64,000 nt of DNA from an uncultured Spirochaetales bacterium (GTDB lineage Bacteria > Spirochaetota > Spirochaetia > Sphaerochaetales > Sphaerochaetaceae), in assembly GCA_944390025.1 (NCBI GenBank), contig CALXOK010000002.1:1-64000 (forward strand), written 5' to 3'. The translations under genes were made by a program, and so were the position numbers. Under the pieces are notes generated by a model that saw only the letters and a program-made list of their open reading frames with translations, was not told where the DNA came from and searched no databases. How positions within the stretch are numbered: the stretch's first letter is position 1; the number at the start of each line of letters is the position of its first letter. Below, in pieces: positions 18,126 to 29,374 of this stretch.

Positions 18126-20237
18126 TCAGTGAGTCGCCTTCGGCGTGAAACGCTTCTCAAGCGTGAGCACGTTGAAGCCGTCTGAATACTCGTACCTGAC
18201 ATCATCCATCATGCGGCGCACGATGTGGATGCCAAGACCGCCAATTGGACGCTCATCAGCATCAAGCGTGACATCAGCTTCAGCCTTCTTTGTCGGATCA
18301 TACTGCACGCCGTTATCCTTAAAGGAAATGAAAACTCTGTCCTTTTCTGTCGTGCATGTAACCTCGACGATATCCGCTCCGCTGTAAAAGACTATGTTGG
18401 AGAAAATCTCGTCGCAGGCTACTGTGCAGTGGTTGACCGACTTGTCATCGCAGCTGACTTTAGCCAGACATGATTCAACGAAGGAGAAGAGTGTCTCCAG
18501 ATTATCAAGATTGGGTTTGACTCTGATTGTGTCCATAAACTGTGCCTGTACCTTTTTGAATTCATCGATACGCAATGCAAGCATTGTGATGTCATCAAAC
18601 TGCTCCGCCTCACCCTTGAAGGAATCAAGACTTGCCTTCATATGGTCTATAAGGGACTGGCAGCTCTTATCATCGATTTCATTGAGAATCCTGATCATCC
18701 GCTCTTCACCGAAGGCCTCAAGGCTCTCATTTGTCGCTTCAGGGATTCCATCTGTGTAAAGGAAAAGCCTGTCTCCTTTCTCAAGCTTGAGAGAGTGTTC
18801 CTGATACTTCATTCCCGGCATGCCGGCAAGAACGAAATTGGCCTTTTCCTTAACAAGGGAGAAAGGCTGCCCGTTGCGGGACACTGCCGGATGCTCATGA
18901 CCGGCATTGGCATAATCCAGCTGGCCTGTCACAAGGTTGTACAGACCGAGCCAGACTGTGACGAACATGCCCTCCTCATTGTTCTCGCACAGCTGGTCAT
19001 TCACTTTCATCAGAACCTCCGCAGGGCTTTCTCCGAGCTGGCAGCGGTTCTTGATGAGGGTTTTTGCAATCACCATGAAGAGTGCTGCAGGCACACCCTT
19101 GCCGGAGACATCAGCCATGACAAGAGCAAGATGAGTGTCATCGACAAGGAAGAAGTCATAGAAGTCTCCACCGACTTCCTTTGCAGGAGTCATTGATGCA
19201 TGAAGATCGAACTCCTTGAGTTCAGGGAATGCTGGGAAGATGCCTGGAAGCATGCTGCCCTGGATATGGCGTGCGACATCAAGCTCGGCACCGATTCTCT
19301 CCTTTTCCCTTGTGATGGATGTGATATTGTCAATGTACTCGACAATGTCGTTCTCCATCTTGAGAAGGCTCTGGGCCAGAGTCTCAATTTCATCATTTGT
19401 CTTTATCATGGCAAGCTCCTTTGACGGGACACGGTCCTCCTTCACGAAGGCAAGTGCTTCCTGACTGACTTTGTTGATAGGTCTGATTGTCTTTCTTGTC
19501 AGGTAGATTGTGTAGATAATCGTAAGAAGCACACAAAGGAGCACTGCAATGAGTACGGCGAAGATGACATACTGTCTCAGGGCCTGCTGTATTGTCGTCA
19601 TCGGAGTCTCGACACCGATAAGGGCATATGTCTCGCCAGTGCTGTCCTGAAGTGCGACAAAGGCAGATGTGTTGTAACCGTACGCACTGTGAGAAATATA
19701 GTAGAAGTCCTCAGTCCTCTCGCCGGTCTCCCACATCCTGTCAACGTATTCGATGAAATCCGGATTCATCGGGCCGGTGTCGCCAAGCACATAGCTGAGT
19801 GATTCATCCGCATAACAGTCGAAGATATAGTAAAGAGGATTCCAGTCCTCCATACCATCCTGATAGCTGTTCATCAGCGGTATGTTGATATAGATGATGT
19901 AGATATCATTGACACCCATGCCTTCACGGAGGTCAAAAAGCAGGTTTCTTGTCTCCTGGTATTTAAGCGAGTGGATGATTGAGTCCCTCTCATTCTCGCT
20001 GAGATTTCCCTTGACGTAATCCCTTGTGGCAATCGAGTAGACCTGCAGGGCTTCCTCATCAAGATAGTTCGCCGCTACATTCGCAATCTCCCAGGCTGTC
20101 TGGTTGTACTGCTTCTGGATTGAGTTCCTTGTCTGGATATAACCGACAAGAGAACAGAAGAAACAGATGACTGCGGCAAAGAGCACGGCAGAGACATTCA
20201 GCTTGACTGAAAGCGAGATTCTCCTTTTCTTTTTCAT
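18126..20237 (-). CDS. Membrane SpoIIE-type phosphatase fused to an RsbW-like kinase domain
   Basis: 703 residues. TM1 about 12-32, an extracytoplasmic sensor region to about 220, TM2 about 222-245, a HAMP linker, a PP2C/SpoIIE phosphatase domain about 330-545 (KEVGGDFYDFFLVDDTHLAL, MADVSGKGVPAALFM, DRLFLYTDGIPEATN), then a HATPase domain about 570-700 with an intact N-box (ACDEIFSNIVFY), G1 (FKDNGVQYDP) and G2 (GGLGIHIVRRMM). The phosphatase should dephosphorylate a STAS antagonist and the kinase domain could rephosphorylate it; the STAS protein four genes upstream is the obvious partner. Start overlaps the previous stop by four bases. Last gene of the operon. Confidence 0.85.
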   Translation of the reverse strand: MKKKRRISLSVKLNVSAVLFAAVICFFCSLVGYIQTRNSIQKQYNQTAWEIANVAANYLDEEALQVYSIATRDYVKGNLSENERDSIIHSLKYQETRNLLFDLREGMGVNDIYIIYINIPLMNSYQDGMEDWNPLYYIFDCYADESLSYVLGDTGPMNPDFIEYVDRMWETGERTEDFYYISHSAYGYNTSAFVALQDSTGETYALIGVETPMTTIQQALRQYVIFAVLIAVLLCVLLTIIYTIYLTRKTIRPINKVSQEALAFVKEDRVPSKELAMIKTNDEIETLAQSLLKMENDIVEYIDNITSITREKERIGAELDVARHIQGSMLPGIFPAFPELKEFDLHASMTPAKEVGGDFYDFFLVDDTHLALVMADVSGKGVPAALFMVIAKTLIKNRCQLGESPAEVLMKVNDQLCENNEEGMFVTVWLGLYNLVTGQLDYANAGHEHPAVSRNGQPFSLVKEKANFVLAGMPGMKYQEHSLKLEKGDRLFLYTDGIPEATNESLEAFGEERMIRILNEIDDKSCQSLIDHMKASLDSFKGEAEQFDDITMLALRIDEFKKVQAQFMDTIRVKPNLDNLETLFSFVESCLAKVSCDDKSVNHCTVACDEIFSNIVFYSGADIVEVTCTTEKDRVFISFKDNGVQYDPTKKAEADVTLDADERPIGGLGIHIVRRMMDDVRYEYSDGFNVLTLEKRFTPKATH

Positions 20238-21913
20238 GCGTCCTCCTCTTTCCTGATTTTGACAGTGAAACTGTTCATGCCCAGAGTACTCTGATAGTCA
20301 ACATCACTTGCAAGCGCCTTGATCATCCTTATACCGAGGTAAGCATCGCTGTCCTCGTCCAGAGCTTCCAGGACATTGTAGTATTTTCCCCCTGTCCTGA
20401 GGGTGAGAATCGTTTCTTTTTCATAGATTGCCAGACGGATGAAAATTCCCTCATCCGCAGCCAGTGAGCGCTCCCTCATGAGCGTCATGATCTCTTCAAG
20501 AGCGAGGGAGATGACCATTGAGGTATGAGGAGACAGGCCATTGTCACCAGCCCAGGAGGAAAGCTCCTCTGAAGCGGCACAGATTTCATCTTCATTCGCC
20601 CTGATTGCTCTCTGAAGCACTTTCTCATTCTCATCCGCATTATCCTTTTTTCTGAGCATGATGAATGCGATGACAGCTGTTGCGATTTCCCCGCATGGCA
20701 GATAGAGCCATGGCATGATGCCCGCCTGGCGGAAAATGAACAGAAAGACGACAGGCATCAGCAGAAGGCGGGAGAAGACACAGAAGGAGGCCTCCCCTGT
20801 CCTTCCTTCCGCTGTCAGCCAGGATGAGACGACCATCGTGAAAGACGAGAAAATAAGAGAAAGAGCCAGCATCCTCATAGCCTGAGTGCTGTCAGTGCTT
20901 ATTCCAAAGAGAGGTGAGATGAATGGAGATACAAAGAAAAGGACAACTGCGATGATTGCAGAAAGCAGCAGCGCCGTCCTCATCTCAAGGGTGAGAACCC
21001 TCTTTGATGACTGTCTGTCCTTCTCTCCTGCCAGAAGGCCGAGAAGCGGGGAGCCTGTCTGCTCAACACCCTTATTGGGCATGCACCAGACAAAGTCGGA
21101 CACTGAGTTCACGAGAGCGACTGTGACAAGGTCGCTGCCTGCAAGCAGGGCGTTTACGAATATGATCCTCAGAGAAAGGAAAAGGTTGTCGCTTGCGCTC
21201 GGAAAACCATAACGGAAGCTGTCAAGCAGTGTCTTGAAATCTGCTTTTGCCAGGAAGAACTTCCTCTTCCTCCTTGTCCAGGCAAGGAAGATAAAACCGA
21301 CCAGGGTCGCAACTGTGGATGCGGCGACAAGAGCCAGAGCCGCACCGGTGACTCCCAGGCCGAAGACATAGACAAAGATATATGTGCCTGCAATATTCGT
21401 GATTCCCATAAGGACGACAGCCGCCGCAGAAATCCTGACCTTGCCTTCCAGCCGGAGAAAGTGGAATGGGACATAGGCCATGATAATCATAACGGAACCA
21501 AGGAAGACTGTCCGGATATAGGAAAGAGCCATGTCATAAAGGGGACCTGCTGCAAGCAGGGATGCAATAGCAGGTGAAAGGATATAGCCAAGGACCGTCA
21601 CAATCAGGGACAGCAGGAGACTCACCTCAACGCTGAGGCTGAAAAGAGATTCTGCCTTCCTGTTCTCCGCCCTTCCGTAAGCCAGGGATGCAAGATAGAA
21701 GAAACCGCATGACAGGCCGGATGCGAGCGTGCAGACCAGAAGATATACAGGCAGTGCGCTGTTGAGGGCGGCAAGCGCCTGATCTCCGAGCAGACGTCCT
21801 GTCAGTACGTTTGATATCGAGGTGTCGAGTACGGAGAAAAGCGCCGAGAAAAGATTCGGCACCAGGAATGAATAGAATTTTCCGGTTGTGTAGTTCTGTA
21901 TCTCACGTCCCAT
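20234..21913 (-). CDS. MATE-family exporter fused to a degenerate RsbW-like domain
   Basis: 559 residues. Residues 1-435 form a MATE transporter with about twelve membrane segments (LFSALFSVLDTSISNVLTGR, YRGF-like loops, WCMPNKGVEQTGSPLLGLLA). Residues about 440-559 are a HATPase_c_2-type domain: SMVISLALEEIMTLMRERSL in the N-box position and YLGIRMIKALASDVDYQSTL in the G2 position. The N-box asparagine and the G1 aspartate (TLRTGGKYYN) are replaced, so kinase activity is doubtful and the domain may only bind a STAS protein. The fusion suggests that export by MATE is controlled by partner switching. Overlaps its neighbours by one and four bases. Confidence 0.8.
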   Translation of the reverse strand: MGREIQNYTTGKFYSFLVPNLFSALFSVLDTSISNVLTGRLLGDQALAALNSALPVYLLVCTLASGLSCGFFYLASLAYGRAENRKAESLFSLSVEVSLLLSLIVTVLGYILSPAIASLLAAGPLYDMALSYIRTVFLGSVMIIMAYVPFHFLRLEGKVRISAAAVVLMGITNIAGTYIFVYVFGLGVTGAALALVAASTVATLVGFIFLAWTRRKRKFFLAKADFKTLLDSFRYGFPSASDNLFLSLRIIFVNALLAGSDLVTVALVNSVSDFVWCMPNKGVEQTGSPLLGLLAGEKDRQSSKRVLTLEMRTALLLSAIIAVVLFFVSPFISPLFGISTDSTQAMRMLALSLIFSSFTMVVSSWLTAEGRTGEASFCVFSRLLLMPVVFLFIFRQAGIMPWLYLPCGEIATAVIAFIMLRKKDNADENEKVLQRAIRANEDEICAASEELSSWAGDNGLSPHTSMVISLALEEIMTLMRERSLAADEGIFIRLAIYEKETILTLRTGGKYYNVLEALDEDSDAYLGIRMIKALASDVDYQSTLGMNSFTVKIRKEEDA

Positions 21914-23472
21914 CAGGAATTCTCCTTAGCTGCAAGATATTCCGCTTCATCCTGTCTGAGGATAAAAGAAGCCTTATTGTGGCCGCCTTTGAATAGCGAT
22001 GTGCGCATCGCTCTCAGTGTTCCTTCCTCAAGCAGGCAAAAGCGTGGAGGAGCAAGCAATGAAAAGCGGCATACATCCTCGTATTCACTGTCAAGTTCCT
22101 GCAGGATTGAATGAAGCGATGAAGAAAGCTTCTGTATTTCTTTCTGTCCCGGGGCCTCAACATAGACACGGTAGCATGCAGGGGTGGATGAAAAGTCAAA
22201 GGCAAGCGCGTAATCGGTGAAAATGACCCCTGTTCTCTCAGAAAGGATGCCCATCGCATCCTGAAAGACGCTTGCGCCAAGCTTCTCCCCTGCAAGGTTT
22301 ATGATATCGTCAACACGCCCTTCCACCGTGAACAGAGGACTCTGGTTATGAAAGCCTGTGATTTTAAGCTCATCATTCACAACATAGCGGTACAGACCGC
22401 TGAACGTGGTCACCACAGGAGAGACTGACATACCCTCTCTGAGATCCTCCATTGGAATGATCCGGTTTTCTTTCAGGTCTGCAAACTCATAGAACGCTGT
22501 GTCTGCAAGCAGTATGTACTCACTCCTGTCAAACGATATGGGAACACCCATCTTGCACTCGCTGGATGCGTATGTGTAGTAATAAACCGGAGTGTCGTGG
22601 AGTATTCTCCTCAGACTCTGTGTATGACGCCTGTAGACGCTTCCTCCGATTCCGGAGACAAAGCCAAGAGACGGGAATACTGTCCTTATGTCCTTATCTT
22701 CAAAGAAGACATCCCTGAATGCCATAAGTCTTTTCTCATCAGGATGAGGAAGAGATTCCACAGCCTTTCGCATGTGTTCAGACACAGGGACAGAGAAGTC
22801 TCTCTTTCTTATGTCATCACACAACATGTCGAAATTATCACGGATATATGCGAAGAAGACTGTAAGATCATAAAGATAATTCGAGATGATTGCACTCAGA
22901 TCCTCACAGGACAGAAAAAGCCGGGCCTTGAGATAAAGCATGGACTCAAGTCCGTCAACAAACATGAAAGGATAACCGCCGGCGATGTTCTCTTCCCTCA
23001 AGGTTCCATTGTTCTTCAGATTCCAGTAAAAAGCGGCAGAGAGAATTGTATCGTTATGCACACCCTCGCCCTTTCTGTAGGCGCCGACATGGAACTCCTT
23101 GCGCTCTCTCTGTTTCTGAAGCCTGAAGGGAACTTCATACCAGTAAGATGAATAACGCCTCAAGGCTTCATCCGTAAGCAGGAAGCGCTTGCGGCTTCCG
23201 CTGCTGCCGGATGAAAGCAGATTGCAGTTCACTGTATAAGCTGTAAGAGCCGTCTCATCCCCTGAGAGGTATTTTTCAATATATGGAGCATGGCTGCCGT
23301 AACAGCCGGCATCTACAGCACTGATGTAATCCTGAGGTGAGTGCACAGAGTCAAAACCGTGGTCGCGGCCGAATGCACTCAGGCTGCAATCGCTCACTAT
23401 CCTTTTCAGGTTGTCCTTATTGATCTCAAGGGCGGATTTGCTCGTTTTCTCGATATGATCAAGCAAATCCAT
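21913..23472 (-). CDS. GH3-like acyl-adenylating ligase
   Basis: 519 residues resembling the GH3 auxin-responsive/acyl-acid amido synthetase family of the ANL adenylate-forming superfamily. The ATP loop is LLSSGSSGSRKRFLLTDEAL (about residues 86-105); VVTTFSGLYRYVVNDELKIT and FTVEGRVDDIINLAGEKLGA carry the later adenylation motifs. Plant GH3 enzymes join amino acids to carboxylic acids through an acyl-AMP; bacterial members are mostly uncharacterised. It sits between the STAS and MATE genes in the export operon, so its product may be linked to the exported peptide or to a small molecule moved by the MATE protein. Both ideas are inference. Confidence 0.75.
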   Translation of the reverse strand: MDLLDHIEKTSKSALEINKDNLKRIVSDCSLSAFGRDHGFDSVHSPQDYISAVDAGCYGSHAPYIEKYLSGDETALTAYTVNCNLLSSGSSGSRKRFLLTDEALRRYSSYWYEVPFRLQKQRERKEFHVGAYRKGEGVHNDTILSAAFYWNLKNNGTLREENIAGGYPFMFVDGLESMLYLKARLFLSCEDLSAIISNYLYDLTVFFAYIRDNFDMLCDDIRKRDFSVPVSEHMRKAVESLPHPDEKRLMAFRDVFFEDKDIRTVFPSLGFVSGIGGSVYRRHTQSLRRILHDTPVYYYTYASSECKMGVPISFDRSEYILLADTAFYEFADLKENRIIPMEDLREGMSVSPVVTTFSGLYRYVVNDELKITGFHNQSPLFTVEGRVDDIINLAGEKLGASVFQDAMGILSERTGVIFTDYALAFDFSSTPACYRVYVEAPGQKEIQKLSSSLHSILQELDSEYEDVCRFSLLAPPRFCLLEEGTLRAMRTSLFKGGHNKASFILRQDEAEYLAAKENS

Positions 23473-23476
23473 GACT

Positions 23477-23773
23477 TTATTCGATGGTGAGAATATCTGA
23501 AAAACCTGTCACTGTGAAAACATCCATCACAGTGTCGTTCACATTCCTCACAATCATTTTCCCCTGTCTGGACATGACTTTCTGTGCAGACAGAAGAACC
23601 CTGAGTCCGGCTGATGAGATGTATTCAAGATCTGAGAAATCGAAAACAAGCATCTTCGCATCTGCAAGCTCGCTCTTGAGGACCTTCTCGACTTCAGGAG
23701 AAGTCATTGTGTCCATTCTTCCTGACACCTTCAGTGTGAATTCCTCTCCTTCCCGTTTCTTGTCAATTGTCAT
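23477..23773 (-). CDS. STAS-domain anti-sigma-factor antagonist (SpoIIAA/RsbV type)
   Basis: 98 residues, a single STAS domain: VSGRMDTMTSPEVEKVL, LVFDFSDLEYISSAGLRVLL, then FSDILTIE at the C-terminus. The serine pair at 53-54 before AGLR is at the phosphorylation site of RsbV/SpoIIAA. In partner switching the unphosphorylated form binds a HATPase kinase and frees its other target. Start at 23773 because AGGAGG lies nine bases upstream; a longer frame begins at 23806. It lies 85 bases after the second ABC gene and four bases before the GH3-like gene. Confidence 0.9.
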   Translation of the reverse strand: MTIDKKREGEEFTLKVSGRMDTMTSPEVEKVLKSELADAKMLVFDFSDLEYISSAGLRVLLSAQKVMSRQGKMIVRNVNDTVMDVFTVTGFSDILTIE

Positions 23774-23858
23774 ACTTTTCTCCTCCTGAATGATATCTGA
23801 TTGCAAAAATCATGATATCTATTATCCAACGTTTCAAGCCTTGCGGCATGAAAAGAAA

Positions 23859-26030
23859 TCAAATCCTCTGTCTTTCGACAAGGCTTCTGAAGAATTCATT
23901 ATCCTTCAGAAGTTCATCATATGTGCCGTCAGCGATGATCTTACCGTCATCCAGAACAATGATTCTGCTGCAGTTCCTGATTGTTGACAGCCTGTGTGCA
24001 ATGACAATCCTTGTGCACTTGAGGCTGTCCAGAGACTGGGAGACAATCTTCTGAGAGACATTGTCCAGTGCGCTTGTCGCCTCATCAAAGAAGAGAATCC
24101 TTGGCTTCGATGCGATTGCACGTGCAATCATGATGCGCTGTCTCTGTCCGCCGGAGATTCCGCCATTGCCCTCAGAGATGATGGTGAACATGCCCATCGG
24201 CATGCTGCGGATGTCATCCGCCATTCCTGCAAGCTCAGCTGCCTGCCATGCGTCATCCACGCTCAGCCACGGTGCTGATACAGTGATATTTGAGTAAATG
24301 TCTCCCTGGAAGAGCTTGCCGTTCTGCATGACAACACCGATTTTCTTTCTCAGCGACCTCAGGTCAATTGAAGACAAATCCCTTCCATCATAGTAGATAG
24401 CACCTTTCTGAGGTTCTTCAAAACCGAGAAGCAGACGCATCAGGGTTGACTTTCCACAACCTGTCCTTCCGACGATTCCCACATATTCACCCGGCCTGAT
24501 TTTCAGCGATATGTTGTTCAGTATATCAGGTCCTGTCGGTGTATAACGGAAGCTGACGTTGTTCAGCTCAATCGAACCGGTCACACGCTCGAGGACTGTT
24601 TTCTGAACTGACACTTCAGGAACACACTGGAGTATTGGCCTTATATTCGTGAGCAGAGGCTGAATGTTCGCCGCCATCAGTATGATTCCGGTCATCGCGG
24701 TTACCGCTGCGATAATCATGCTGTAGGCAGAGTTGAACACATAGTAATCCGCCACGGAGATTGAATAATGGACAGCAAGGAAATAATAGGCAATGGTTCC
24801 TGCAAGCGGGATTACCGTGGTGAGTGTTGTCCTGAGAATGTTAGGCGGGCTGTATGAGACCGCGCTTGTGGCAGAGTAGTATTCTGCCCACTTGGCGAAG
24901 GCCCTCTTCTCAGCACCTGCAAGCTTGATTTTCTGGACACCGGAGATGAGCGAATAGGCAACTCCGCTTTCCCTGGAGCCAGCTTCCAGTTCCTTGACAT
25001 TTCCGGCTATCTTCTTCTTCATCGTGACTATGGAGACACCTATCATAGCCGCAATCACTACGATTACAGGAAACACCAGAGATGGCGTGTAACTGGCAAT
25101 CTGGCTCAGATACGCCAGAGAGAAAATTGATGTAAGTCCTGTCGATACCAGCGAGTTGACCAGTATGTCGCAGAATGTGCTGAAGTTCTGGACACGCTGC
25201 GAGAGGTCACCAGGACCATACTTCTTGAAGAAGCTGGTCGGGAGGGAGAGAACCCTCATCATGGTCGCAGCCTGGACATTCGCGTTCATCCTGAGGCTTA
25301 TGCGGGATATCATAAGTGTCTTTATCAGGTCGAAAAGCTTCATGCTTACCGTGACACAGAGCATGAACACCGCTGTCGACAGCAGAAGGCTGATGCTTTT
25401 TGAGTCCACTACCTGTGTCAGGAAGATGCTGTTAAGGCGTGGAACCAGGAGTCCTATCAGAGTCGAAACCAGAGCTGCAAAGGCAAGATACACCAGATCT
25501 CCCTTAGTCAGAGTGGAATAGATATACTTTGTCAGGTCGGTTATTCCAATCTGCTTTAAAGGCATCGGACGGTAGAATGCTATCGCATCCTTCGAAAAAA
25601 GCTTCTCGTTATCCTTTGTGACTCTCACATCCTTATTTGTGGAGGAATCGTAGAAATAATAATCCTGAAAGCCTCTGGGAATGAGCGCGACAATCTCATC
25701 ACTGTCTTTTCTTCTGGCTAGCATGGCGCCCATCGCATCCTTTCTCCAGCCGTCTGAAAGCCTGACCTGACGGCGCATGATGCCGTATGGACGCATAAGG
25801 TATTCAAGCTTCTCGTTGAGGTCCTTGACAGCAGAGGGCACTTCAGACATCCTGGCTCCGAAGAAATTCATGATGTCACGGATTGCACCTTCACCTTTCT
25901 GTCCCTGCTGGGAAAGATAGATGTAGCTTTTGTCGCTGGTTACACTTGAGGCTATATGAGCGAATGATGTGCTGAAATCATCATCATCGTTTTTCATTCT
26001 CTGTCTGATTTGTTCGTCAAACCAACCCAT
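23859..26030 (-). CDS. NHLP-type peptide export ABC transporter, permease/ATPase subunit
   Basis: 723 residues. A soluble N-terminal region of about 180 residues precedes a six-segment ABC membrane domain and a C-terminal ATPase with Walker A GIVGRTGCGKSTLMRLLLG (about 517-535), signature SGGQRQRIMIARAIA and Walker B RILFFDEATSALD. No peptidase domain is present. This is the architecture of the second ABC protein of NHLM/NHLP-type peptide export systems, which pairs with a C39-containing ABC protein. It starts nine bases after its partner's stop. Confidence 0.85.
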   Translation of the reverse strand: MGWFDEQIRQRMKNDDDDFSTSFAHIASSVTSDKSYIYLSQQGQKGEGAIRDIMNFFGARMSEVPSAVKDLNEKLEYLMRPYGIMRRQVRLSDGWRKDAMGAMLARRKDSDEIVALIPRGFQDYYFYDSSTNKDVRVTKDNEKLFSKDAIAFYRPMPLKQIGITDLTKYIYSTLTKGDLVYLAFAALVSTLIGLLVPRLNSIFLTQVVDSKSISLLLSTAVFMLCVTVSMKLFDLIKTLMISRISLRMNANVQAATMMRVLSLPTSFFKKYGPGDLSQRVQNFSTFCDILVNSLVSTGLTSIFSLAYLSQIASYTPSLVFPVIVVIAAMIGVSIVTMKKKIAGNVKELEAGSRESGVAYSLISGVQKIKLAGAEKRAFAKWAEYYSATSAVSYSPPNILRTTLTTVIPLAGTIAYYFLAVHYSISVADYYVFNSAYSMIIAAVTAMTGIILMAANIQPLLTNIRPILQCVPEVSVQKTVLERVTGSIELNNVSFRYTPTGPDILNNISLKIRPGEYVGIVGRTGCGKSTLMRLLLGFEEPQKGAIYYDGRDLSSIDLRSLRKKIGVVMQNGKLFQGDIYSNITVSAPWLSVDDAWQAAELAGMADDIRSMPMGMFTIISEGNGGISGGQRQRIMIARAIASKPRILFFDEATSALDNVSQKIVSQSLDSLKCTRIVIAHRLSTIRNCSRIIVLDDGKIIADGTYDELLKDNEFFRSLVERQRI

Positions 26031-26039
26031 ATCCGCCTC

Positions 26040-28196
26040 CTACTCGCTCATGACAAGCTGGCTGTAAAGCCCTTCATGAGACATGAGCTCATCATGTGTG
26101 CCTCTGTCCACGATTTCGCCATGATCGAGAACGATTATCTCATCACAGTCCCTGATGGTTGAAAGCCTGTGAGCAATGACTATGCATGTGACACCACGGG
26201 CCTGAATCGACTGCACGACGTCGTACTCCGTCCTCGCATCAAGAGCACTTGTAGCCTCATCGAGGATGACGATTGTCGGGTCCTGTGCGAGCACACGCGC
26301 GATTTCAAGACGCTGACGCTCACCTCCGGAGAAGTCACTTCCGCCTTCTGTGAGCCTGTACTGGTAACCGCCCTCTCTCATCATGATGTTCTCATGAATG
26401 TGCGCATCCCTTGCCGCAAGAATCATCTCGTAATCAGCAATCGACTTGTCCCACATCTTTATGTTGTTCGCAATCGTGTCTTCATACAGGATGATATCCT
26501 GGTCAACAACTGCGAGGGACCCGGTGAAGACACTGTGGTCAATCTGGTCAACGGTCTTGCCGTCAAATGTTATTGTGCCCTCCCAGGGTCTGTAGAGCCC
26601 TGAGATGAGCTTCGACATCGTTGACTTGCCACAGCCCGAGAAGCCGACAATGGCGACCTTGCTTCCCCGCTTGACGCTCAAGGAAAAGTTCTTCACGACG
26701 GGTTCACTGAGGCGGGAATAGCCGAAGGTGACATTGTTTATCTCAATGTTTCCGGATAGCTTGTCGTATTCGACATCCTCATCTTTAAGCGAAGAGTCAC
26801 AGGTCTGATCAGTCTTGTACTTGAGCACATCCTCCACCCTTTCCATGTCGCTTCTCATTTCCTGGATTGTCTGACTTGCAGAAACAAGTGTTCCGGCAGG
26901 AGCGGCAAATGAGGAAAGAAAGCCCTGGAAGGCAAGAAGCATACCGGTCGTGAACTCACCCTGCATGACAAGATAGATGCCGCATGTCAGGACAATAACG
27001 TCCGTCAGAGCGGATACAAGAGTGGGAATCGCGCCGTAATATGTGTTCAGCTTCGAATACTTTATGTCCTGAGTGTTGACATTCGCCTGATAGCCTGCCC
27101 AGTGTTCGAAATATCCATTCTCAGCACCGCTTGCCTTGATGGTCTCAATCATGTCGATACCATTGACAGTAGAGCTTGCGAGCTTGCCGGAGTCTCTCAT
27201 CATGACTCTTGTGATATTCACTTTCTTTTTTGCGATATACCGGGACAGGGCGAAATTCACAAGAACAGAGAAGATTCCAAGAATCGACAGGAACACGCTG
27301 TAGCGGAGCATGACCACAAGAAAAAGAATCATGGTGCAGGTATTCAGAACCAGGGGGGCCAGTGTGTTCACAAGAATCTGGGCGATGGAAGCATTCGTCT
27401 GCTGCCGCTGCAGGATATCTCCAGTGAAGCGCTGCGAGAAGAATGTCATCGGAAGCCTTAGCACGTGCCACATGAAGCGTGCGTTGCCTATTGCCGCCAG
27501 CTTGCCGTTCAGGCGCTGGGAAAACACCTGCCTTACAATCTCGACAACGGCCGTAACAATCGCAAAAAGGCCGAGTATGAACGTGAACGGGTATATCCAC
27601 TTCTCCCCATTGCCGCCAAGCACGCTGTCAAGGAAGAATCGTGAGAATGCCGGATTGACAATGGCGAAGACTGATGTGATCAGTGTCGTTATCGTGATGA
27701 ATGTGAAAGCGAATGAACTTCCTTCCAGCTTCTCCTTCACGAAGCCCATGATGCTCTTCGGCTTGCCTTCCTTCTTGAAATCCTTGCCGGGTCTGAACTG
27801 GAGGCAGATTCCAGTATATGACTCGTCGAATTCCTCCTCGCTGACAGAATATACCCCGCGGGCAGGATCGTTGATTATGGCTTTTCCATTCCTGAAACCG
27901 TCGAGAACAACGAAGTGATTGAACTCCCAGTGGAGAATGCATGGAAATGACACTTCCTCCTTCAGCTCATCCACATCATAGCGGTAGCCCTTGGCCTCCA
28001 GACCGTAATTCCGGGCCGCAAGAAGAATGTTTTTCGCCTTTGAACCGTCTCTTGAGACACCGCAGTCATAACGCACCTGTTCCAGAGGCAGCCATTTCTT
28101 GTAATAGGCCAGAATCATGGCAAGGCAGGCGGCACCACATTCCAGCGCCTCCAGCTGCATGATTACCGGTACTTTCGCGACTTTTGACTTCAACAC
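26040..28196 (-). CDS. C39-peptidase ABC exporter (NHLP type)
   Basis: 718 residues. The N-terminal C39 peptidase cuts leaders after GG: Gln14 and Cys20 in MQLEALECGAACLAMILAYY, His in HFVVLDGF, Asp in IINDPARGVYSV. Membrane domain about 165-440, then the ATPase with Walker A GFSGCGKSTMSKLISG, signature SGGERQRLEIARVLA and Walker B TIVILDEATSALD. It should cleave the Nif11-type precursor after its GG and export the core. Ten bases after the HlyD-like gene. Confidence 0.9.
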   Translation of the reverse strand: MLKSKVAKVPVIMQLEALECGAACLAMILAYYKKWLPLEQVRYDCGVSRDGSKAKNILLAARNYGLEAKGYRYDVDELKEEVSFPCILHWEFNHFVVLDGFRNGKAIINDPARGVYSVSEEEFDESYTGICLQFRPGKDFKKEGKPKSIMGFVKEKLEGSSFAFTFITITTLITSVFAIVNPAFSRFFLDSVLGGNGEKWIYPFTFILGLFAIVTAVVEIVRQVFSQRLNGKLAAIGNARFMWHVLRLPMTFFSQRFTGDILQRQQTNASIAQILVNTLAPLVLNTCTMILFLVVMLRYSVFLSILGIFSVLVNFALSRYIAKKKVNITRVMMRDSGKLASSTVNGIDMIETIKASGAENGYFEHWAGYQANVNTQDIKYSKLNTYYGAIPTLVSALTDVIVLTCGIYLVMQGEFTTGMLLAFQGFLSSFAAPAGTLVSASQTIQEMRSDMERVEDVLKYKTDQTCDSSLKDEDVEYDKLSGNIEINNVTFGYSRLSEPVVKNFSLSVKRGSKVAIVGFSGCGKSTMSKLISGLYRPWEGTITFDGKTVDQIDHSVFTGSLAVVDQDIILYEDTIANNIKMWDKSIADYEMILAARDAHIHENIMMREGGYQYRLTEGGSDFSGGERQRLEIARVLAQDPTIVILDEATSALDARTEYDVVQSIQARGVTCIVIAHRLSTIRDCDEIIVLDHGEIVDRGTHDELMSHEGLYSQLVMSE

Positions 28197-28686: not shown

Positions 28687-28965
28687 TCAAAAAAGTATCC
28701 TTGGGAACAGCCCCGGGAAGCGGACAACATTAGATCCACCGCTGACTGAATCAAGGTCGTCATCATCGAGCTCTCCTCTTTTGCTGAAATATGAAGTGAA
28801 ATCCTCAGCGGTTATGGAGAAACCTGCATCCTCTGCAAATGGAACAAGGACATCAGAGATGAACTCAGCGCGGGTTCCTGAAAAATCATCCCTTTTCTTC
28901 TCAAGCTTCTCCATAAGAGATGTATCTTTCTCAAGCAAATCAAAAAAATGTCTGATCTGTTCCAT
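28687..28965 (-). CDS. Nif11-type leader peptide precursor (RiPP-like) with 15-residue core
   Basis: 92 residues. The leader (MEQIRHFFDLLEKDTSLMEK at the start, AEDAGFSITAEDFTSYF in the middle, DDDDLDSVSGG at residues 67-77) has the Nif11-like pattern and the GG site used by C39 peptidases. The predicted core is SNVVRFPGLFPRILF (residues 78-92): hydrophobic, no Cys or Thr, one Ser, and the near-mirror stretch RFPGLFPR. No lanthionine or thiazole chemistry is possible beyond one Ser. Start at 28965: GGAGGG six bases upstream; a longer frame begins at 29022. First gene of the operon. Confidence 0.85.
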   Translation of the reverse strand: MEQIRHFFDLLEKDTSLMEKLEKKRDDFSGTRAEFISDVLVPFAEDAGFSITAEDFTSYFSKRGELDDDDLDSVSGGSNVVRFPGLFPRILF

Positions 28966-29374
28966 ATTTCCCTCCTTTATCATGTCAAAGAAAAACAACT
29001 TGAATAACAGAACATGAAACAAGTTAATTAATTAGCGTTTCCTTTTTTCGACAGTAACATTTAATCATCAAAAAGCTGGTTATGCCAATAAAATTGCAAT
29101 GGCAAACCCTATATTTACAAAAAAAAAGAAAAACACATTATTCACTGTTTGTTCAGCACTTATCAGAAATTCAGAACCTCAGATGATTTCCTTAAGAACA
29201 TCCTTCAGTCTGCTCGCTGACAATGAGCAAGTACCGGATATATCGCTGTATACATCCATTCTCTTTGAATTTATCTTCATAAATGAGTTCAGTCGAGGTC
29301 AGCAGGTGAAGTACAGTTACAACAAGCAGAGAGCCAGTCAGATCACACAGTCATCACGCTATGACGGCAGAACC
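28966..29374. promoter_or_regulatory. Divergent control region between the peptide operon and its XRE regulator
   Basis: About 400 AT-rich bases. At 28997-29002 and 29020-29025 lie AACTTG and CAAGTT, a perfect inverted repeat with 17 bases between, just upstream of the precursor gene; it may be an operator. An open frame runs rightward from 29099 into the regulator, but its first part is low-complexity and I do not think it is coding. Confidence 0.4.

Follow-up and report, generated by a model that had tools for sequence, protein, structure and literature searches.

A Nif11-type precursor with a short, cysteine-free predicted core heads an exporter operon in an uncultured spirochaete

We find that an eight-gene operon on the minus strand of the window (the whole stretch of DNA analysed, 64,000 nucleotides) is headed by a gene which, judged by its sequence, encodes a Nif11-type double-glycine precursor, and that the same operon encodes a C39-peptidase exporter. 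Both proteins score over the cut-offs of their models (TIGR03798 and TIGR03796, respectively), and the leader of the precursor carries the residues that are recognised by the peptidase LahT150. The reading we favour, to which we give a probability of about 70%, is that the precursor is cut after Gly77 and that its core, SNVVRFPGLFPRILF, is exported as a linear, unmodified peptide. In this mechanism the exporter, whose gene is the second one downstream of the precursor gene, would hold the helical leader in its C39 peptidase, the docked precursor would be cut after Gly77, and the 15-residue core would leave the cytoplasm through the same exporter, remaining linear and unmodified; the operon's other ABC protein and its short HlyD-like protein may share in export. 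Cleavage, export and the plain state of the core are what we infer from these features. Counting against the reading as a whole are the lack of an orthologous core to show selection, the presence of a GH3 gene in the operon, the 86% completeness of a genome in which three families of modification enzyme were sought, and a relative of the same genus that keeps the exporter without a recognisable precursor.

The precursor gene and its operon

The reading frame starts with ATG and translates as MEQIRHFFDLLEKDTSLMEKLEKKRDDFSGTRAEFISDVLVPFAEDAGFSITAEDFTSYFSKRGELDDDDLDSVSGG / SNVVRFPGLFPRILF, which confirms the original prediction of a Gly76-Gly77 pair followed by a 15-residue core without Cys or Thr. 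The NCBIfam model TIGR03798 matches the precursor with 36.5 bits (E 4e-9; curated cut-off 32.3 bits), and the match ends exactly at Gly77; the Pfam Nif11 model PF07862 gives 19.5 bits, under its cut-off of 23.8. The earlier description had not named the family, a Nif11 leader with an NHLP-type exporter. The codon score is 0.37 bits per codon in frame, on par with the neighbouring genes (0.36-0.47), and about -0.3 in both other sense frames, while the 15 codons of the core alone, too short to judge, score about 0. Since the TIGR03798 match is over the cut-off, AGGAGG stands 5 nt before the ATG and codon usage is coding-like, this is not a chance ORF.

Features of the precursor operon (positions in the window)
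Feature	Position	Strand	Evidence
Ribosome-binding site AGGAGG, 5 nt 5' of ATG	28971..28976	minus	read by eye
Nif11-type double-glycine precursor, 92 aa	28687..28965	minus	TIGR03798, codon usage, ribosome-binding site
Leader, residues 1-77, ending in LDDDDLDSVSGG	28735..28965	minus	TIGR03798 match 1-77 reaches profile end 68/68
Predicted core SNVVRFPGLFPRILF, residues 78-92 after GG	28690..28734	minus	
Short HlyD-like membrane protein, 154 aa	28207..28671	minus	TIGR03794 E 7e-6, residues 12-63 only
C39-peptidase ABC exporter (NHLP type, PCAT)	26040..28196	minus	TIGR03796
Second NHLP-type ABC exporter, without peptidase	23859..26030	minus	TIGR03797
STAS anti-sigma-antagonist-like protein	23477..23776	minus	TIGR00377, 76 bits, over cut-off
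GH3-type acyl-acid amide synthetase	21913..23472	minus	PF03321, GH3_M, GH3_C; motifs by eye
MATE transporter, C-terminal HATPase-like domain	20234..21913	minus	PF01554; PF13581 weak, below cut-off
Membrane SpoIIE phosphatase with HATPase domain	18126..20237	minus	PF07228, PF13581

No gap between genes of the operon exceeds about 80 nt. The peptidase-exporter scores 926 bits against TIGR03796 (cut-off 853), and the second ABC protein matches TIGR03797 over nearly its full length with 700.3 bits (cut-off 709.4). The NHLP HlyD model TIGR03794 has 421 positions, of which only the N-terminal 52 match the 154-residue HlyD-like protein (25.1 bits, cut-off 156.2). Homologues of this protein, 76-186 aa long, adjoin the same exporter in relatives, and a fold search with it gave no significant match, only weak ones to EmrA, MexA and MacAB. 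A protein of 154 residues leaves no room for a coiled-coil hairpin reaching an outer-membrane channel.

Genes for an XRE-type regulator and an IF-1-like protein (by eye) lie 5' of the precursor in the opposite orientation. The XRE-type gene, considered as a possible dedicated regulator, has only partial matches of 32-39% identity in relatives and none in two genomes of the same genus (G005 and G007). A promoter scan did no better than shuffled sequences, and a compositional island was dismissed, the GC content of the operon resembling that of the rest of the window. The source genome (G000) comprises 1.83 Mb and is 86% complete; we infer a gut habitat for this spirochaete.

Predicted leader recognition and cleavage, and the core

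LahT150 cuts Nif11 leaders after the GG pair; it requires no more of the leader than its last 13 residues, accepts diverse cores, and holds Val-4, Leu-7 and Leu-12 of the leader in its groove (PMC6363468). The C39 domain of the exporter is identical to LahT150 (PDB 6mpz) at 95 of 132 positions (72%) and retains its QxEALECG, NHF and NDP segments. In the precursor, leader positions -4, -7 and -12 are V74, L71 and L66, with G76 and G77 at the end. In an alignment of ten leaders, taken from the window, from elsewhere in its genome and from relatives, Leu-12, Leu-7, Gly-2 and Gly-1 are invariant. An AF2 model of the precursor, of modest confidence (mean pLDDT 72), is helical to residue 74 and disordered from residue 76. 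The predicted cut after Gly77, giving SNVVRFPGLFPRILF, is thus well supported by the 72% identity of the C39 domain to LahT150 and by Val-4, Leu-7 and Leu-12 in the leader. The earlier proposal of C39-type processing at this site therefore stands, and homologous leaders, which might have pointed to a cut elsewhere, all align on the same GG.

The predicted core has no Cys and no Thr, and its single Ser is the first residue. With a charge of about +1.5 and a GRAVY of 0.8 it is cationic and hydrophobic; its calculated average mass is 1762.1 and its monoisotopic mass 1761.01. The description of RFPGLFPR as mirror-like needs a small correction: between its two Arg residues FP occurs twice, four positions apart (FPGLFP). 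The core thus departs from the Cys-, Ser- and Thr-rich composition that is typical of the TIGR03798 family, though not strictly required.

A search for homologous precursors, as had been advised, yielded leaders that could be found and aligned, but no orthologue of the core in 101 relatives, plasmids or viral contigs. Weak precursor matches in relatives (for example at L011) were discarded, as they belong to a different conserved protein without GG. No orthologous frame runs past the stop codon, which says little given that no orthologue was found at all. Paralogues and relatives have entirely different cores, as is usual for antagonistic peptides and specific signals alike.

A different contig of the source genome encodes a second Nif11 precursor (L009:617-964, minus strand; G000:C25), with 25 bits against TIGR03798, below the cut-off; its Cys-free core, YGIFHPLRNPNYRMRKNATD, is cationic and hydrophilic. 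This gene is located at the end of its contig, close to a transposase-like fragment. In another genome of the same family, G176 (L156, G176:C30), two Nif11 precursors lie about 1.4 kb from each other, and their short cores, GWHGNPWFETS and IWVDSWGNVHTES, lack Cys; no LanC-like, YcaO or SPASM enzymes were found in G176, and no exporter was detected in this incomplete genome. The Nif11-like precursor of G005 (L138:1282-1764, minus strand; G005:C29 near 5170) has a long Cys/Gly-rich core and lies about 1 kb from a radical-SAM/SPASM gene, and is likely the precursor of a modified RiPP. A member of another family of the class, G070 (L084, L085, L127-L132), has 27 matches to the Nif11 model, with short cores of about 6-20 residues, often bearing Cys, and with radical-SAM genes interspersed. 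Both core styles, the presumably plain and the presumably modified, occur among these spirochaetes, since the cores in G000 and G176 are Cys-free while the precursors of G005 and G070 are near radical-SAM genes.

Role of the peptide and state of its core

A small cationic, hydrophobic antibacterial peptide resembling class II microcins is the role that we put first, though we hold it weakly; a secreted signal ranks next and is somewhat less likely. The bacteriocin role is weakened by the lack of a recognisable immunity gene by the precursor, there being no unassigned gene from the precursor to the SpoIIE gene. Sensing of the peptide by the products of its own operon is weakened by the conservation of the SpoIIE sensor, which is equal in a genome without the exporter.

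G007 has genes for the short HlyD-like protein, both exporters, STAS, GH3, MATE and SpoIIE in the same order as G000; no precursor is recognisable in this 88% complete genome, even by a looser double-glycine DNA pattern. In G005, genes for STAS, MATE-HATPase (with an equally weak PF13581 match), a methyltransferase, an acetyltransferase and SpoIIE directly precede the exporter; the methyltransferase and acetyltransferase occupy the GH3 position, and no GH3 gene lies beside the exporter. In each of the three genomes of the genus, G000, G005 and G007, the NHLP exporter is thus joined by genes for STAS, MATE-HATPase and SpoIIE-HATPase, with either GH3 or the methyltransferase and acetyltransferase between them. 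A literature search found no paper describing such a cassette, and its recurrence raises the question of how export is regulated. A further locus, L125, has GH3, MATE and SpoIIE genes, and no C39 exporter was found there. Its genome, G518, appears to be the same as G012, in which the exporter search gave a match of identical place, E-value and score; no match in either covered the peptidase region.

The recurrent linkage could mean that the SpoIIE sensor phosphatase, STAS and HATPase domains read the peptide as a signal and would then set expression or transport. We consider this unlikely, because the SpoIIE sensor region is as well conserved in exporter-free G012 (53% identity) as in G007, which has the exporter (54%), and therefore does not track the peptide; the missing precursor in G007 also argues against it.

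Returning to export of a plain peptide, we searched the source genome for three families of modification enzyme, namely LanC-like, YcaO and SPASM. LanC-like and YcaO proteins gave 0 matches each in this 86% complete genome, so that the earlier claim of no lanthionine or azole enzyme nearby is borne out and extends to the whole of G000. A single radical-SAM/SPASM protein was found; it was rejected as the maturase of the peptide, because it most resembles the models of anaerobic sulfatase maturases (with scores slightly below the cut-offs). G007 encodes a homologue of this type too. No cognate enzyme that would place the peptide among lanthipeptides, azole (TOMM) peptides or radical-SAM RiPPs was thus found in G000 at 86% completeness. 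The core probably remains linear and plain on secretion, because the usual enzymes would have nothing to cyclise in it and were not found.

The precursor might instead be modified by a distant, unrecognised enzyme, or by one that the incomplete assembly lacks. Modification is usual for Nif11 precursors elsewhere (PMC2887384; PMC4289311), and the second precursor of G000 is unlinked to the exporter in the assembly, so parts of the system can be dispersed. The absence of Cys and Thr from the core, together with the failure to find LanC-like, YcaO or RiPP-type SPASM proteins, nevertheless makes such an enzyme quite improbable.

The operon itself offers another candidate, which the claim that no such enzyme lies nearby had overlooked, correct as it was for the lanthionine and azole types. 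GH3 enzymes use ATP to activate a carboxylate and then couple an amine to it, and the operon GH3 protein could tailor the core before export, for example at its C-terminal Phe. The suggestion that the peptide is exported unmodified or altered only at its ends is accordingly strengthened in its first part by the absence of LanC-like and YcaO enzymes, and in its second gains a named candidate. The GH3 gene lies 4 nt from the STAS stop codon and overlaps the MATE gene, the protein keeps the GH3 fold and adenylation motifs (plant GH3 structures match with E 1e-19), and exporter and GH3 are kept together in G007. However, L125 has GH3 with MATE and SpoIIE but without the C39 exporter, and GH3 must be useful there without the peptide; in G005 the exporter has the methyltransferase and acetyltransferase beside it instead; and the closest named bacterial GH3 model, a weak match, is a lyso-ornithine-lipid synthetase. 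Tailoring by GH3 is therefore quite improbable as well, and the enzyme probably has another purpose, since a relative has the GH3-MATE-SpoIIE genes without the exporter. If tailoring did occur, it would bring the GH3 family into RiPP chemistry. The most elaborate form, in which GH3 tailors a ribosomal peptide and both export and tailoring come under partner-switching control within one operon, is the least probable of all.

Relation to known Nif11 and bacteriocin systems

A high content of Cys, Ser, Thr or Gly has been described for Nif11 cores (PMC2887384; PMC4289311), and a 2014 survey of anaerobes recorded such clusters in no spirochaete (PMC4289311). The precursor resembles the N11P family (TIGR03798; Haft et al. 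2010) in its leader, which is of the same family, has a length near 70 and ends in an LDxxxLDxVxGG-type motif, and in the TIGR03796-type and TIGR03797-like exporters that adjoin it. Unlike that family, described as Cys/Ser/Thr or Cys/Gly/Ser rich, it has a core without Cys or Thr and a spirochaete as host, and no modification enzyme of a known type is linked to it.

With LahT/LahA of Lachnospiraceae C6A11 the system shares a 72% identical peptidase domain and the same leader recognition residues. The lah cluster has nine precursors, whereas here there is one linked precursor. In the present operon, partner-switching and GH3 genes follow the exporters.

A GG leader, a C39 exporter and a predicted linear core are also features of class II (unmodified, double-glycine) bacteriocins and microcins. 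Here, in contrast, the leader is of the long Nif11 type and no immunity gene is seen; class II bacteriocin cores are usually longer than this one.

Within the class, the radical-SAM-linked Nif11 arrays of G070 likewise combine Nif11 leaders, an NHLP exporter and short cores, but SPASM radical-SAM genes stand among the precursors there, as they do not here. A Nif11 leader is taken as the sign of a heavily modified peptide. The several Cys-free cores in one spirochaete family, in genomes (G000 and G176) where no LanC-like, YcaO or RiPP-type SPASM enzyme was found, suggest that plain linear peptides, too, make use of this leader and exporter; genome mining that starts from modification enzymes would miss such peptides.
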